NCBI GenBank assembly: GCA_011046135.1
Contig: DSBG01000054.1
Location: 1-43,581, forward strand
DNA from: Deltaproteobacteria bacterium
Lineage (GTDB): Bacteria > Desulfobacterota > Desulfomonilia > UBA1062
Direction: 5' to 3'
DNA length: 43,581 bases
Shown: positions 1 to 6,274 of the stretch, piece after piece
How the letters are laid out: each line of letters begins with the position of its first letter
Position numbering within the stretch: the first letter of the stretch is position 1
The notes under the pieces: generated by a model
Seen by the model: only the letters and a program-made list of their open reading frames with translations
The model's database searches: none
What the model was told of the DNA's origin: nothing
Program-made: the position numbers and the translations under genes

Positions 1-114
1 AGAACGGCCCAGGAACTTCTCGGCAACAAGAATGTCAATACAACCATAATTTATACCCATGTCATGTGCAAAGGGGCCGGAGCCGTGAAAAGCCCGCTCA
101 ACGATCATGGGTAA
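1..114 (+). CDS. Integron-integrase-like tyrosine recombinase, C-terminal fragment (cut by window edge)
   Basis: The open frame from base 1 to the TAA at 112-114 gives 37 residues, beginning [15 protein letters not shown]. The catalytic tyrosine context IIYTHV is followed by a tail ending [10 protein letters not shown]. The TTxIYTHV block is general to tyrosine recombinases; the following G-x-G-x-VxSPL tail is typical of integron integrases (IntI) rather than XerC/D. The family acts on attI/attC sites to insert and excise gene cassettes. The His that normally follows LG in this block (LGH, the His/Trp catalytic position) is Asn here (bases 25-27), which would be expected to impair catalysis. 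The start and most of the gene lie left of the window. I saw no attC-like site within the first 300 bases. Confident on family, unsure whether the gene is functional. Confidence 0.78.
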
Positions 115-263
115 CTTCGGTGCGCACTCCGTCCCTGAAGGGTGTGTGGATGGATGTGTGCTCTCCCTCCCATAAATGTGTTTCCATGAATGGGGCATGA
201 CAGTCCAGGGTGCTTTATCGTTGGTGGCTCTGGGCCACGATACCAGAAAGATGCGGAACAGGC

Positions 264-338: not shown

Positions 339-1211
339 TCAGGGTTTGTGGTTCGTGTCTGGTTCTCCGATGTTCTTTACGGGGGGTTCGGGGTGCTCTT
401 CCTCGCTCTCCGGTGCCGGTTCAGCAGGTTCCTCTTCTGTATCGGGAGGTTCGGGCAGGGAAACGTCCTGGAGTGGTTCTTCTTCACCTGCGGGCTCCCT
501 GCTGGGTGTCTCGGGCTGAGTCTGTTCGGGCAGGGCAGGGGGCGGCTCCAGCTCCGCGATCCACAAAGGGTGGCGGTGGCGCGCGTAGTCCAGGCGGATG
601 TTGCCGGTGAAGATGGAGCGCACCATGGGCCGGTTGGGCTTGATGACGATGGCTGCCATGTGGGCGAAGAAGGCAAGCACAAAGAGGATGAACAGGAGGT
701 TGTGCACCCAGGTGGCCCACAGGAGGATCCCCAGCGACAGGTCGGGCGCAAAGATGTTCTTGTAGGTCTTGACGAGCCCGGAGATGATGAGCCCTGCAAT
801 GATCATTACCATGCCGGCATAGGCCAGCCGCTGCTCGGGCAGGTACTTGTGGAACGGGGGCTCCTCGGCCTTTCCCAGGAAGCTTTTGATCACCTGGATG
901 GACTGGCGGATGTCGCCTTTTTTCGGGAGCATGGCTTTGTGACCGAGCAGAGCGTGGTAGAAGACGTGGAACAGGCATGCCGCGATGAAGACCACGGATG
1001 CCGCGTAGTGGATGTTCAGCGAGAAGATGAAGTCCCCAGACCAGGTGAGCCCCGGCACCTCGGTGATGTAGTAGCGCTGCGCGATGGGGAGCTGGAAGAT
1101 GCCGGTGAGCACCAGGAGCAGGCCGGAGATGGCGATGGCCCAGTGCTCGATGAGCACGATCGTGCTGTGGCGCTTCACCAGGCCTTTGTCGTACAGGATC
1201 CGGTCACTCAT
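339..1211 (-). CDS. Membrane cytochrome b subunit (formate dehydrogenase gamma-like)
   Basis: A 290-residue protein with four hydrophobic helices between about residues 20 and 215. Histidines suited to haem b ligation sit near helix ends: H15 and H23 in the first segment, several in NIHYAASVVFIAACLFHVFYH, and more in the fourth helix (WVHN and FFAHM). This is the fold of FdnI/formate dehydrogenase gamma-type cytochromes, which pass electrons between a periplasmic Fe-S subunit and the quinone pool. The start overlaps the upstream Fe-S gene by 8 bases, so the two are translationally coupled. The last 70 residues form an unusual Pro/Glu-rich, low-complexity tail after the final helix. The catalytic subunit of such a complex is not adjacent. 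Family assignment is fairly sure; substrate unknown. Confidence 0.8.
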   Translation of the reverse strand: MSDRILYDKGLVKRHSTIVLIEHWAIAISGLLLVLTGIFQLPIAQRYYITEVPGLTWSGDFIFSLNIHYAASVVFIAACLFHVFYHALLGHKAMLPKKGDIRQSIQVIKSFLGKAEEPPFHKYLPEQRLAYAGMVMIIAGLIISGLVKTYKNIFAPDLSLGILLWATWVHNLLFILFVLAFFAHMAAIVIKPNRPMVRSIFTGNIRLDYARHRHPLWIAELEPPPALPEQTQPETPSREPAGEEEPLQDVSLPEPPDTEEEPAEPAPESEEEHPEPPVKNIGEPDTNHKP

Positions 1212-2240: not shown

Positions 2241-2534
2241 TTACAGCGAACAGCTCCCCGACGAATAGCCAGGGGTCACTCGCGATGCGATGTTCAGTCC
2301 CCGGAAATCAGCATCGATGGTGATGTTCCCGACAAGATCCAGGGTGCTTCTACCAATAATAAAGGTGAATCCGTCAATTTCAAATGTCTCGTCGTTGTCC
2401 TTCGGCTCATCCAGAGCCAGCCGCAGCTGCGGACCGCCTCAGGCGAACCGCATCAGGATTCTGAGTGCGCACCCGTCACGATGTGCATACCGTCTCTCGA
2501 TCTCTTTTCTGCCCTTTTCCGTCATGCTGATCAT
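2241..2534 (-). CDS. HesB/IscA-like selenoprotein, in-frame UGA at codon 32
   Basis: A 97-residue frame from ATG 2534 to TAA 2243-2241, interrupted only by TGA at 2441-2439. GGGAGG lies about 9 bases before the ATG. Around the TGA the protein reads LRILMRFA-U-GGPQLRLALDEP, then DETFEIDGFTFII. This matches A-type Fe-S carrier (IscA/HesB) proteins. The UGA falls where IscA has its first conserved cluster-ligand cysteine, and the GGP...LALDEP context is the signature of the known HesB-like selenoprotein family. One cysteine remains near the C-terminus (C95), where IscA has a CxC pair. A plausible SECIS hairpin follows the UGA. The gene is first in an operon with Fe-S and cytochrome b subunits. 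Because of the UGA, ordinary gene callers would split or miss it. A recent nonsense mutation is the alternative, but conservation on both sides argues against it. Confidence 0.85.
2404..2441 (-). promoter_or_regulatory. Candidate bacterial SECIS element downstream of the UGA
   Basis: Starting 21 bases after the UGA (2441-2439) on the minus strand, GGCTC (2418-2414) pairs with GAGCC (2408-2404) around the five-base loop TGGAT. The loop carries two G residues and begins 26 bases after the UGA. This fits the bacterial rule of a short stem with exposed guanines 15-35 bases downstream for SelB binding. The stem is only 5 bp, so the support is moderate and rests mostly on the selenoprotein call. 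Confidence 0.55.
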
Positions 2535-2637: not shown

Positions 2638-3345
2638 ATGGAGGCCTTCGAGATCCTTTCACACATTCCGCTCTTCAAGGGACTACCCGACGATCAGCTC
2701 AGGATCCTGGCAGGGTGTGCGAGCGAGCGGCGGTATCGGCCCGGCGAGGCGATCTTCATCCAGGAGGACGAGGCCCAGGCCCTCTACCTCGTGATCTGGG
2801 GCAGGGTGAAGATCTTCAAGGCCTCGGAAGACGGCAGGGAACAGACCATCTTCATGTTCGGACCCGGCGAGCCCTTCTGCCTCACGGCCCTTGCCGATGA
2901 GTTCTCGCCCGCCAGTGCCATGGCCCTCGACGAGGTGCGCATTTTCTCCTTCTCGGCAAAAGTGCTGGAGTCCGTGGCACGCAAGGAACCCTCGCTCCTC
3001 TTCAACATGCTGCTCGTGCTCTCGAGGAGACTCAAGGAGTCGCTCAGTCTCATCGAGGCCCTGGCCCTCAAGGACATTCCCCAGCGCCTGTCGGCCTACC
3101 TTGCAGCTGTGCTGGTTCAGCAGGGGGCAGGGGAGGTGATCGAACTCGGGTTTTCCCAGCGGGAGCTGGCCAAGGTCCTGGGCACCACGCCGGAGACGCT
3201 CTCCCGGGTCTTTCGCAAGCTGGAGACAGAGGGGGTTCTCGAGGTCCGGAACCGCTCCATCAGAGTCATTGACGCGGATGCACTGCTGAAATCATCCGGT
3301 AAAGACGATCCCGACAATCCACGCGCGGACAGGCGCGGTCGCTGA
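2638..3345 (+). CDS. Crp/Fnr-family transcriptional regulator
   Basis: 235 residues. An N-terminal cyclic-nucleotide-binding-type beta-roll (about residues 5-115, with PLFKGLPDDQL and the RPGEAIFIQED turn) is followed by a long dimerisation helix. A C-terminal winged helix carries the recognition sequence FSQRELAKVLGTTPETLSRVFRKL. The E-x-x-S-R pattern in the recognition helix is the one FNR uses to read TTGAT, in agreement with the box at 2600-2613. There is no N-terminal cysteine cluster, so it is not a classical oxygen-sensing [4Fe-4S] FNR. It is closer to the DNR/HcpR-type members, some of which sense haem-bound nitric oxide. ATG 2638 is preferred to GTG 2587, because the longer form would place the operator inside the coding region. 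It is likely the regulator of the divergent redox operon. Confidence 0.85.
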   Translation: MEAFEILSHIPLFKGLPDDQLRILAGCASERRYRPGEAIFIQEDEAQALYLVIWGRVKIFKASEDGREQTIFMFGPGEPFCLTALADEFSPASAMALDEVRIFSFSAKVLESVARKEPSLLFNMLLVLSRRLKESLSLIEALALKDIPQRLSAYLAAVLVQQGAGEVIELGFSQRELAKVLGTTPETLSRVFRKLETEGVLEVRNRSIRVIDADALLKSSGKDDPDNPRADRRGR

Positions 3346-3380: not shown

Positions 3381-4535
3381 TCAGGGCACCTCGATGCCGT
3401 TTTTCCTGAGCGTTTCGAAGTAAGTTTCGTAGCAGCGGTGTTCGATTGCCGAGAGCCTCTCGAAGGCGTTGGAAAAGGACGCTGCATCGCTTAAGAACGT
3501 GCCGTGCCCGGAGACGATGGCGGCGTGGCCTTCCACCAGGGCCTCGGGCAGGGTGTGCATGAGGCCGCGCCTGCCGGCTCCCACCTCGCCCGACACGACG
3601 GGGATCCCGCCCACGGAGCGTCTCTGGCCAAAGGGCAGCTCACCTCCGAACATGGACATGATCACGGAGAACTTCGGATGGCCGTGGATGATAAGCCTGT
3701 GACCCGTGAGCTCATAGATCCTCAGGTGGGCCATGAGCTCGGAAGAGGAGGTGAGGTCGCAGGTGGACGACCCGTCGAGGGGCACCCTGTCGATATACCC
3801 GGGGAGCTCATCCAGGGATGAGCCGGTCTGGGAGATGTAGAGGTCGTCCCCTTTGAGGCACGAGATGTTTCCGAAGAAGGAGTCCACCAGCCTCCTTGAG
3901 ACCATGAGCTTTCCCGTGATGTCCATGGCATGGACGATCCCCTCCTCGGTATCAGGAATGCGTGCAGGCAGGTCATTGATGCCCGAGGGAGGCCTGAATC
4001 CATCCAGGAGTTCGAGGGCCTGTTCAAAATGCGCGTGCTCCGGTCGGATCTCCGGGGAGAATTCGCAGATGGTGTTTAGGATGTCTGAAAAGTACTTCAC
4101 GAAGCAGGCGAAGCAGATGGAGCTCAAGACGATGAAGGCCTGTTCAACGGAGACGCTCCCGAGGGTCACGATGCCCGAGTCCCTCACGATGCAGCCCTTC
4201 CTCCGGTTCAGGGCGCAGGCGATCTGGTCGGGGTCGAAGGTGTCCACCACCGGGATGTCGTGGATGAAGGTGAGGCTCTCCGAGTCGCGGGGCGTGATGA
4301 GCAGCAATGACTCGTCACAGAGCGCGGTGATGATCCGCCACAGGTCTCTGCCAGGCCGGGCGTGCACGAGGCTCGAAATGCTCAGGATCTCGAAGAGTCT
4401 CTCCACCTCGCCCGGCACACGGTCCAGGTTCGTGGAGATCTCGTCGTCCAGGCCGTAGAGGGCGCAGTCTTCCCGTGCGTCTATCAGGCCATGGGCCAGG
4501 AGCTTGTTCAGATACTTTTCTACCTGGTTGCGCAC
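3381..4535 (-). CDS. Tandem-domain class II aldolase/adducin-family protein
   Basis: 384 residues from a GTG at 4535, which lies 16 bases inside the end of the oxidoreductase gene and has AGGGGGA about 7 bases upstream. The C-terminal half (about 205-384) carries the features of a zinc-dependent class II aldolase: GN at 222-223, SSE with E266, the metal pair H284/H286 in IIHGHP, and H344 in VSGHGTF. The N-terminal half (about 55-155) reads like a second, decayed copy. Its IVRDSGIVTLGSVSVEQAF resembles the usual LRNHGVVTVG...EEAF segment, but the metal-binding His is replaced by Ser120. Such enzymes cleave or form sugar phosphates or hydroxy-acids with release of an aldehyde, so coupling to an aldehyde oxidoreductase makes metabolic sense. 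Substrate unknown. Confidence 0.75.
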   Translation of the reverse strand: MRNQVEKYLNKLLAHGLIDAREDCALYGLDDEISTNLDRVPGEVERLFEILSISSLVHARPGRDLWRIITALCDESLLLITPRDSESLTFIHDIPVVDTFDPDQIACALNRRKGCIVRDSGIVTLGSVSVEQAFIVLSSICFACFVKYFSDILNTICEFSPEIRPEHAHFEQALELLDGFRPPSGINDLPARIPDTEEGIVHAMDITGKLMVSRRLVDSFFGNISCLKGDDLYISQTGSSLDELPGYIDRVPLDGSSTCDLTSSSELMAHLRIYELTGHRLIIHGHPKFSVIMSMFGGELPFGQRRSVGGIPVVSGEVGAGRRGLMHTLPEALVEGHAAIVSGHGTFLSDAASFSNAFERLSAIEHRCYETYFETLRKNGIEVP

Positions 4536-6274
4536 AGCGCGATCCCCCTGGTTCGGATCTCGGTGAGCGTTCCGTCGGGATTGCATCCCCTGATCCGGTA
4601 GTAGCGGTCCAGCGCCTCTTCGAAGGCGGCCCTGTCGATGGGAGGGATCTCGATGCCGGGGCCGTTCGTGCCGGCCTCGGTGTAGAACCTCTGCGGGAGC
4701 ATGTCGTCTGCGCGGGTGAATCCCCTGAGCGTGTTGATGTGCCGCTCGAGGCTTGAGATGGTGTCCCCGATGCGGAGCAGGTCCTGGGTGTCGAGCTCCA
4801 GCCCCGTGACCGCGGAAAACCCCTTGGCGTACTCCTCCAGGGATGCCCCGAGGAAGGCGAACTTGCAGGCGCCGATGGAGTCGACCACGCTGTTGAGGTC
4901 CTCTGCGATCTTGATGATGCGCGCCTTGCCCGAGAAGCTGAACCGGTCCGTGGCAACAGGCTTTCGCAGGATCTCGTGGGCGATGGGGTAGGCGCGCAGA
5001 TGGCATGCACCGCGGGTGGAGGTGCCGTAGGCCAGCGCCATGCCATATGCCCCGCGGGGATCGTAGGCGGGCAGCTCCAGGGATTTCACGCTCATGGAGA
5101 GCTCCGGCACGCCCAGTTCCCGGGCCATGAGCGCGGAGCCCAGCCTGAGAAGCTCGCCATCGCCTTTTCCAGTGACGATTTCTTTCACCTTTTCCACGAG
5201 GGCGGCGCCGGTATAGCGGGTCTGCCTGATCTCCGCGAGGCAGGCGATGGTGGATGCCGCGGTGATGGTATCGATCCCGGCTTCGTTGCAGAGGCGGTTT
5301 GCCTCGATGATGGACGCGAGGTCGTTGTTTTCGTTGAGGGCCCCGAAGTGGGAGAGGGTCTCGAACTCGGGGAGCGAGGTGTCCGTACGCTTCTTGCACG
5401 CGATGGGGCAGCCGTGGCATGCGTGGTGTGTGACCCGGCCGTGCCGTGCGAGCGTTGGTGCGGAAAACGCCCGGTAGCCTTCGAAATAGGTCCTGCGGAA
5501 GTTGGCCGTGGGCATCATGCGCCGGGATGCCATGAGGTCCACCAGGGTGGCGGTGCCGAAGTTCTTCAGGCCCGATCTCCCCATGATGGCAGGTGACGCA
5601 TCGAAGAGCCGGATGATGTCTGTCCTGGCCGCCTCCTCCCCGGCCCGGTCGACACTTGTAAGGCGTGAGGTGCCCATGACGTTGAGGGCGCGGAGGTTTC
5701 TTGAGGCCATGACGAGCCCCAGCCCGCCCCTGCCCGAGGCATAGGTCCCATCCACCATGATGGAGGCATACCGGCAACCGGCCTTTGCCCCCGGCCCGAT
5801 CGCCGCCGTGGAGCCTCCTTGGCGGGCAAGGGATGCGAAGACCTCGCTCAAGGGGAGATCTGCTGCCAGGTGAGCCTCTTCGAACGTGACCCCGGAGTTG
5901 TCGATTGTCATGACGAGTTCGGTCTCGGCCCTGCCCGTGATGTGAATGAAGTCCGCACCGGCCTTCCTCATCTCGATGGCGAGTCTCCCGCCCACCGAGC
6001 AGCTGCAGATGGTGTTGGTCAGGGGGGAGAAGGCGGAAATTGCCGTGCGCCCCGAGGCCGGGATTCGCGACCCGGTGAGCTGTCCCGTGGCAAAGACGAG
6101 GGGAGCGTCATGGGCAAGGGGGTCCGCGGTGGGGCAGGCGCCCAGAAACCACGAGCCGATGCCCCTGCCTCCGAGGAAGGCACGCGATACGTCATCAGGC
6201 AGTTCCCCGGGGCGGGCTTCGCGTTTCTCCAGGTCGATGTACCAGCCCTTCAGGCTCGTCAGAGGTCGGTCCAT
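4520..6274 (-). CDS. Aldehyde:ferredoxin oxidoreductase, tungsten-pterin type
   Basis: 584 residues, close to the 600-620 usual for the family. The N-terminus has the typical WYIDLEK and LGGRGIGSWFL blocks of the pterin-binding domain, followed by GPGAKAGCRYASI and the GRGGLG block. The [4Fe-4S] ligands are visible as C286, C289 and C293 (HACHGCPIACK) and C470 (SIGACKF). The family oxidises aldehydes to acids with ferredoxin, using a tungsten or molybdenum bis-pterin cofactor in the cytoplasm. A short GGAG lies just before the ATG at 6274. The downstream class II aldolase overlaps it by 16 bases, so the pair forms one translational unit. Which aldehyde is used cannot be told. Members with a short C-terminus and an uncertain cofactor exist, but all key residues are present here. 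Confidence 0.88.
   Translation of the reverse strand: MDRPLTSLKGWYIDLEKREARPGELPDDVSRAFLGGRGIGSWFLGACPTADPLAHDAPLVFATGQLTGSRIPASGRTAISAFSPLTNTICSCSVGGRLAIEMRKAGADFIHITGRAETELVMTIDNSGVTFEEAHLAADLPLSEVFASLARQGGSTAAIGPGAKAGCRYASIMVDGTYASGRGGLGLVMASRNLRALNVMGTSRLTSVDRAGEEAARTDIIRLFDASPAIMGRSGLKNFGTATLVDLMASRRMMPTANFRRTYFEGYRAFSAPTLARHGRVTHHACHGCPIACKKRTDTSLPEFETLSHFGALNENNDLASIIEANRLCNEAGIDTITAASTIACLAEIRQTRYTGAALVEKVKEIVTGKGDGELLRLGSALMARELGVPELSMSVKSLELPAYDPRGAYGMALAYGTSTRGACHLRAYPIAHEILRKPVATDRFSFSGKARIIKIAEDLNSVVDSIGACKFAFLGASLEEYAKGFSAVTGLELDTQDLLRIGDTISSLERHINTLRGFTRADDMLPQRFYTEAGTNGPGIEIPPIDRAAFEEALDRYYRIRGCNPDGTLTEIRTRGIALCATR

Follow-up and report, generated by a model that had tools for sequence, protein, structure and literature searches.

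A predicted HesB-like selenoprotein of a distinct branch, encoded beside a divergent Crp/Fnr-family regulator

The hesB locus and its in-frame UGA

The window (the whole stretch of DNA analysed, 43,581 nucleotides) carries on its minus strand a gene for a 97-residue HesB/IscA-like protein, hesB (2241–2534; ATG at 2534, TAA at 2241–2243), which we predict to be a selenoprotein from its translation with TGA as U, its match to NF038090, its relatives and its IscA-like fold. The translation reads MISMTEKGRKEIERRYAHRDGCALRILMRFA-U-GGPQLRLALDEP...SSGSCSL and has one TGA in frame, codon 32 (2439–2441, minus strand). This triplet was re-checked and is read as selenocysteine on the TGA and Cys counts in related loci; the motif around it is AUGGPQLRLALDEP. 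The next gene after hesB, on the same strand, encodes a Tat-exported HybA/HmcB-like 4Fe-4S protein (1204–2199) and overlaps a gene for a cytochrome b561/FdhI-like membrane subunit (339–1211, minus strand; PF01292, TIGR01583). Divergent from hesB on the plus strand is a gene for a Crp/Fnr-family regulator (2638–3345) with a cNMP-binding domain (PF00027) and a Crp helix-turn-helix (HTH; PF13545). Between the two divergent genes lies a perfectly palindromic predicted FNR/DNR-type site, TTGATCCAGATCAA (2600–2613). Also in the window are a piece that by eye resembles the final part of a tyrosine-recombinase/integrase gene (1–198, plus strand) and, near the hesB locus, an aldehyde ferredoxin oxidoreductase gene (4523–6274, minus strand; AFOR_C, E = 1.8e-100).

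Four claims of an earlier, sequence-only reading of this DNA bear on the open reading frame, and each is borne out. Gene callers were expected to split hesB, and no minus-strand frame in the conventional list of ORFs of at least 50 amino acids covers 2241–2534, because the two halves are 31 and 65 residues long. The halves were held to form one A-type-carrier-like protein, and the NF038090 match spans the UGA. The UGA was placed at a conserved IscA cysteine; its column in a profile alignment matches the GCSG cysteine of E. coli IscA (1s98), the first in that protein. Lastly, the GGP...LALDEP context of HesB-like selenoproteins is present, including the UxGP motif that an extract of PMC13188914 (Table 1) gives for them.

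The aligned codon was compared across 113 related loci, 33 from searches of the genome itself and its relatives and 80 from genome contigs. It is TGA in 106 and Cys in seven, with nothing else at this position; the 106 comprise 104 that read U in the alignment and two (L022 and L085) that were dropped by trimming and have TGA there. Relatives with neither Cys nor Sec had been named as a result that would count against selenocysteine. The lone such copy, at the hesB locus of genome G014, was found later and lies outside the 113; it looks broken because it is frameshifted besides having neither UGA nor Cys at the codon. Downstream of the TGA, differences at first, second and third codon positions number 3, 3 and 16 between L106 and L107, and 6, 3 and 17 between L106 and L108 (L107 against L108 gives 4, 0 and 4, too few to tell). 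The L106/L107 differences are mainly at third positions and therefore indicate that the part of hesB after the TGA is translated.

A SECIS-type hairpin, GGCUC-UGGAU-GAGCC (2404–2418, minus strand), starts 20 nt past the UGA, with its loop 25 nt past it. All five pairs are kept in 104 of the 105 TGA loci examined (the one failure is GGTCATGGATCAGGA), and seven loci show a compensatory change to GGUUC..GAACC. The hairpin is also present in L085, the 106th TGA locus, and is whole in only two of the seven Cys loci. Against the 104 observed, synonymous recoding with pooled codon usage retained it in a mean of 11.8 loci (maximum 23, 500 draws); when the 3' arms were shuffled among loci a mean of 96.5 stayed intact, and none of 1000 shuffles reached 104. 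The bacterial SECIS constraints stated in available text of PMC13188914 are a loop of 3–9 nt, a stem of 4–16 bp, a G within the first two loop positions and a distance of 16–37 nt from the UGA; the window hairpin (loop UGGAU, 5 bp, 25 nt) falls within all of them. For the 61 nt after the UGA the minimum-energy fold is another structure (z −0.68), and a 48-nt fold shows the hairpin, so we base the case for it on conservation and not on energy. An Rfam scan of the window returned no match at gathering thresholds.

The source genome (G000; 2.92 Mb in 181 contigs, a draft rated 99% complete) was expected to hold selA, selB, selC and selD. Three of these are there: tRNA-Sec (selC, 74.6 bits, over the cut-off and called by ARAGORN too), selB (343 bits) and selD (374.6 bits; L102, G000:C7:33297–34223), the last probably a selenoprotein gene since it has an in-frame TGA of its own. 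The genome has two further HesB-like loci with TGA. Neither TIGR00474 nor PF03841 detected selA in the draft, although PF03841 finds it in 17 of 24 genomes from the family. A conserved gene adjoins selA in G003, G012 and G023; this usual neighbour, which lies upstream of selA, was likewise not found in G000. The loss of a whole block favours an assembly gap over true absence, and a gap is the likely reason why selA is missing. A patatin match on contig C143, considered as a synteny marker for selA, was discarded since it adjoins another gene.

Taken together, these sequence data make it nearly certain that the hesB product contains selenocysteine. The failure to find selA and the broken copy in G014 could be read as signs of a pseudogene or sequencing error, with the TGA a true stop and the frame dead; we rejected this as wholly improbable on the TGA in 106 of 113 loci, the third-position bias after it, the conserved hairpin and the presence of tRNA-Sec, selB and selD. 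Decoding of the UGA as Trp or Cys, by near-cognate suppression or a reassigned code, was also weighed; it is scarcely credible given tRNA-Sec, selB, the SECIS-type hairpin and the in-frame TGA in selD of the same genome, and code reassignment was rejected on these grounds.

Two other HesB arrangements were seen. A second HesB-like selenoprotein gene of G000 (L003/L150, G000:C81:6260–6556) has an ArsR-like gene on one side and, some way along on the other, genes resembling TusA/YedF and cysteine desulfurase (by eye); this context is suggestive of selenium or sulfur handling. Several genomes of family f41 (L168–L170, e.g. G247:C58:11741–12446) have two HesB genes in tandem, of which one has TGA and the other none, possibly a natural Sec/Cys pair.

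A distinct branch and its regulator

Alignment of the 97-residue product to HesB-like selenoproteins, proposed with the original reading, shows homology over the whole length (NF038090, IscA_HesB_Se of NCBIfam; residues 1–96, E = 2.1e-16). The score of 60 bits is under the cut-off of 85. TIGR01911 (HesB-related selenoprotein) gives E = 5.1e-7 and 30.2 bits against a cut-off of 66.35, and the match to PF01521 is weak (E = 0.003). Because it scores below the curated NCBI cut-offs, we regard the window protein as a divergent branch rather than a standard member. Curated models miss divergent members, and divergent selenoprotein genes thus likely remain split in databases. Calling the protein of an 'unannotated type' is apt as regards these scores, but the family itself is long known: 11 HesB-like selenoproteins were counted in 2006, according to an extract of PMC1794560. 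As such proteins have been known since at least that year, the selenoprotein itself is ordinary.

An AlphaFold model of the window protein (28 sequences; pLDDT 84.2, pTM 0.74; last ten residues below 50) has IscA 1s98 as its closest solved structure (Z 11.7, rmsd 3.3, 90 aligned), followed by IscA 1r94, DsrR, IscA 1x0g and SufA 2d2a (Z 10.6). The A-type carrier (IscA) fold is thus predicted. IscA ligates its cluster by three cysteines, C35 and a C-terminal CxC. The window protein, with Sec at the first ligand position and one Cys in the tail, does not have this three-Cys set.

Ten loci, termed here the clade (the window and G003, G019, G010, G023, G022, G017, G007, G001 and G006), form one side of a branch with support of 94/97 in a tree that was built on a short alignment and takes in 111 of the 113 rows, L022 and L085 being left out as cut short. 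Two long branches, L002 and L114, sit beside the clade. NF038090 matches all ten members. A divergent Crp/Fnr gene stands beside every one of them, nine with E < 1e-109 and the tenth, in G023, an internally deleted remnant. No such regulator was found at E 1e-5 beside the other 103 loci, in flanks of up to 1.5–3 kb (some shorter at contig ends), nor at 1e-3 beside another 24 loci found by searching 395 genomes of the phylum, a count that leaves out L166 and L167 as re-fetches of two clade loci. Among these 395 genomes scores above 120 bits occur only in the window's family (six loci), the next being 95. No isc or suf neighbours were noticed in the stretches read.

The regulator in the window has the recognition helix TPETLSR and lacks the N-terminal Cys cluster of FNR, and on this last ground its assignment as FNR was rejected; FtrB and CRP were set aside because both equivalogs score far under cut-off. 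Excerpts of PMC1274295 link Pro/Ser at position 180 of deltaproteobacterial HcpR to a TTGAC-type motif, give the DNR motif as TTGATnnnnATCAA, and describe both HcpR and DNR as without the FNR cysteines. By the residue-180/181 rule in the same excerpts, the TPETLSR helix fits a TTGA-type motif.

A perfect TTGATnnnnATCAA box lies 79–97 bases upstream of the hesB start in nine of the ten clade loci, and a scan of all ten (31,463 bases) shows no other match with at most one mismatch. The remaining locus, G023, has two mismatches in its box alongside the deleted regulator, a joint decay seen in one case and in a draft assembly. The whole G000 genome holds five perfect boxes and none of the reversed control pattern. 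One of them (L160 ~1501; G000:C100:2512) coincides with the beginning of a gene that by eye is Fur-like, with FeoA- and FeoB-like frames (also by eye) after it. A regulon defined by perfect boxes was considered and rejected; apart from this box and that of the window, the G000 copies fall within recA-, degP- and larE-like genes (by eye) or at their ends and are probably due to chance.

As judged from these alignments, the hesB branch is monophyletic and distinct, and always comes with the divergent Crp/Fnr regulator and a box between the two genes. Control of hesB by this regulator is probable. What appears to be new is a branch below the cut-offs, with a reduced cysteine tail and under an apparently dedicated regulator; among the papers that literature searches on HesB-like or Sec-containing A-type proteins and Crp regulators listed, no title or abstract opening reports the pairing.

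Partner genes and the proposed role

The Fe-S/cytochrome b pair follows hesB in four of the ten clade loci, those of the window, G003, G019 and G010, and the partners in the latter three are 60–69% identical to the window's. These genes were not seen in the stretches read at the other six, one of which has the remnant regulator. G014 combines regulator, box and Fe-S/cytochrome b pair, but with the broken hesB. Opposite the regulator and a perfect box, G009 has a thioredoxin gene (PF00085, E = 7e-27), and behind it come counterparts of the window's Fe-S and cytochrome b genes, at 70% and 62% identity. G018 likewise has a thioredoxin gene opposite a perfect box, there with a partial regulator. 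G020 and G013 have a regulator homologue, and neither hesB nor thioredoxin was found beside it; in G012 and G021 a contig end truncates the locus. Past the regulator and thioredoxin of G018 (L209 2351–3598, G018:C117) there are genes resembling by eye an outer-membrane protein and a sulfide:quinone oxidoreductase, an arrangement that could hint at a sulfur signal.

The best overall explanation, to which we assign a probability of about 75%, is a HesB-like selenoprotein of a regulator-paired branch whose gene would be switched by the regulator. SelB and tRNA(Sec) would insert selenocysteine at the UGA. The regulator, HcpR/DNR-like and without the FNR Fe-S cysteines, would sense a redox or NO-type signal, bind the box between the genes and switch both hesB and itself. 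Less surely, the selenolate and the tail cysteine may hold iron or an Fe-S cluster, or may carry out thiol redox chemistry, and the setting may be a stress operon that in some genomes would pass electrons on to the membrane through an added Tat Fe-S protein and cytochrome b. Between carrier and redox chemistry we slightly favour some binding of iron or a cluster, because the fold and the ligand position are kept.

A serious rival to cluster delivery sees the protein as working by selenol redox chemistry instead of carrying Fe-S clusters, in a redox operon under the regulator's control where thioredoxin can substitute for it. Sec is typical of redox sites, and the tail cluster cysteines of the IscA type are down to one in the window protein. 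Thioredoxin moreover fills the hesB slot in two sister genomes, facing the homologous regulator and a perfect box in G018 and, in G009, standing ahead of the same Fe-S/cytochrome b genes. Yet the swap is confined to these two genomes of one genus, and the fold predicted for the window protein is IscA-like. Nor does the swap separate a carrier from a redox role, since thioredoxin and its reductase load iron on IscA in vitro (PMC12683245, in extract). We consider the purely redox reading plausible, with the odds somewhat against it.

The sequence-only reading had suggested that hesB, at the head of an Fe-S/cytochrome b operon, has a dedicated role in supplying it with clusters; the divergent regulator and its box went unmentioned there. 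The gene order and tight spacing in the window, the same order in G003, G019 and G010, and the predicted A-type fold are all consistent with a carrier for the adjoining Tat Fe-S protein and cytochrome b. The proposal has lost ground, with six of the ten clade members lacking these genes in the stretches read and G009 having them with thioredoxin instead. As the invariant partner is the regulator and not the pair, the protein's general role is unlikely to be delivery to this pair only, and we regard a dedicated carrier as improbable. More tentatively, we speculate that a Sec-containing protein of A-type fold may have left Fe-S assembly to become the effector of a dedicated Crp/Fnr redox/NO switch, its selenolate doing thiol-redox work for the membrane electron-transfer pair and thioredoxin replacing it in the sister genus.

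HesB-like selenoproteins are widespread in anaerobes. They are listed without a function in the available part of a 2026 review (PMC13188914). A branch tied to one regulator, one box and few partner genes is a first handle on what the selenolate does, and the regulator's signal, once found, makes that role testable.

Comparison with known systems

With the A-type carriers IscA, SufA and ErpA (PF01521) the window protein shares the predicted fold (Z 11.7 to 1s98) and the first ligand position; it differs in having Sec for Cys35 and a tail CxC reduced to one Cys. In common with the HesB-like selenoproteins (NF038090, TIGR01911; PMC1794560, in extract) are UxGP at the position of IscA C35, the A-type carrier domain, a SECIS element in the codons past the UGA and hosts among anaerobic deltaproteobacteria and others. 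The window branch departs from them in scoring under both NCBI cut-offs, in its cysteine-poor tail, in its separate position in the tree (94/97) and in its constant association with a Crp/Fnr regulator and an FNR/DNR-type box. The regulator in turn resembles HcpR1 and DNR, as described in excerpts of PMC1274295, in the missing FNR Cys cluster, Pro-Glu at HTH positions 180/181, a TTGA-type palindrome and an orientation divergent to a redox gene, whereas its candidate target is the Sec-encoding hesB or thioredoxin and not hcp or denitrification genes.
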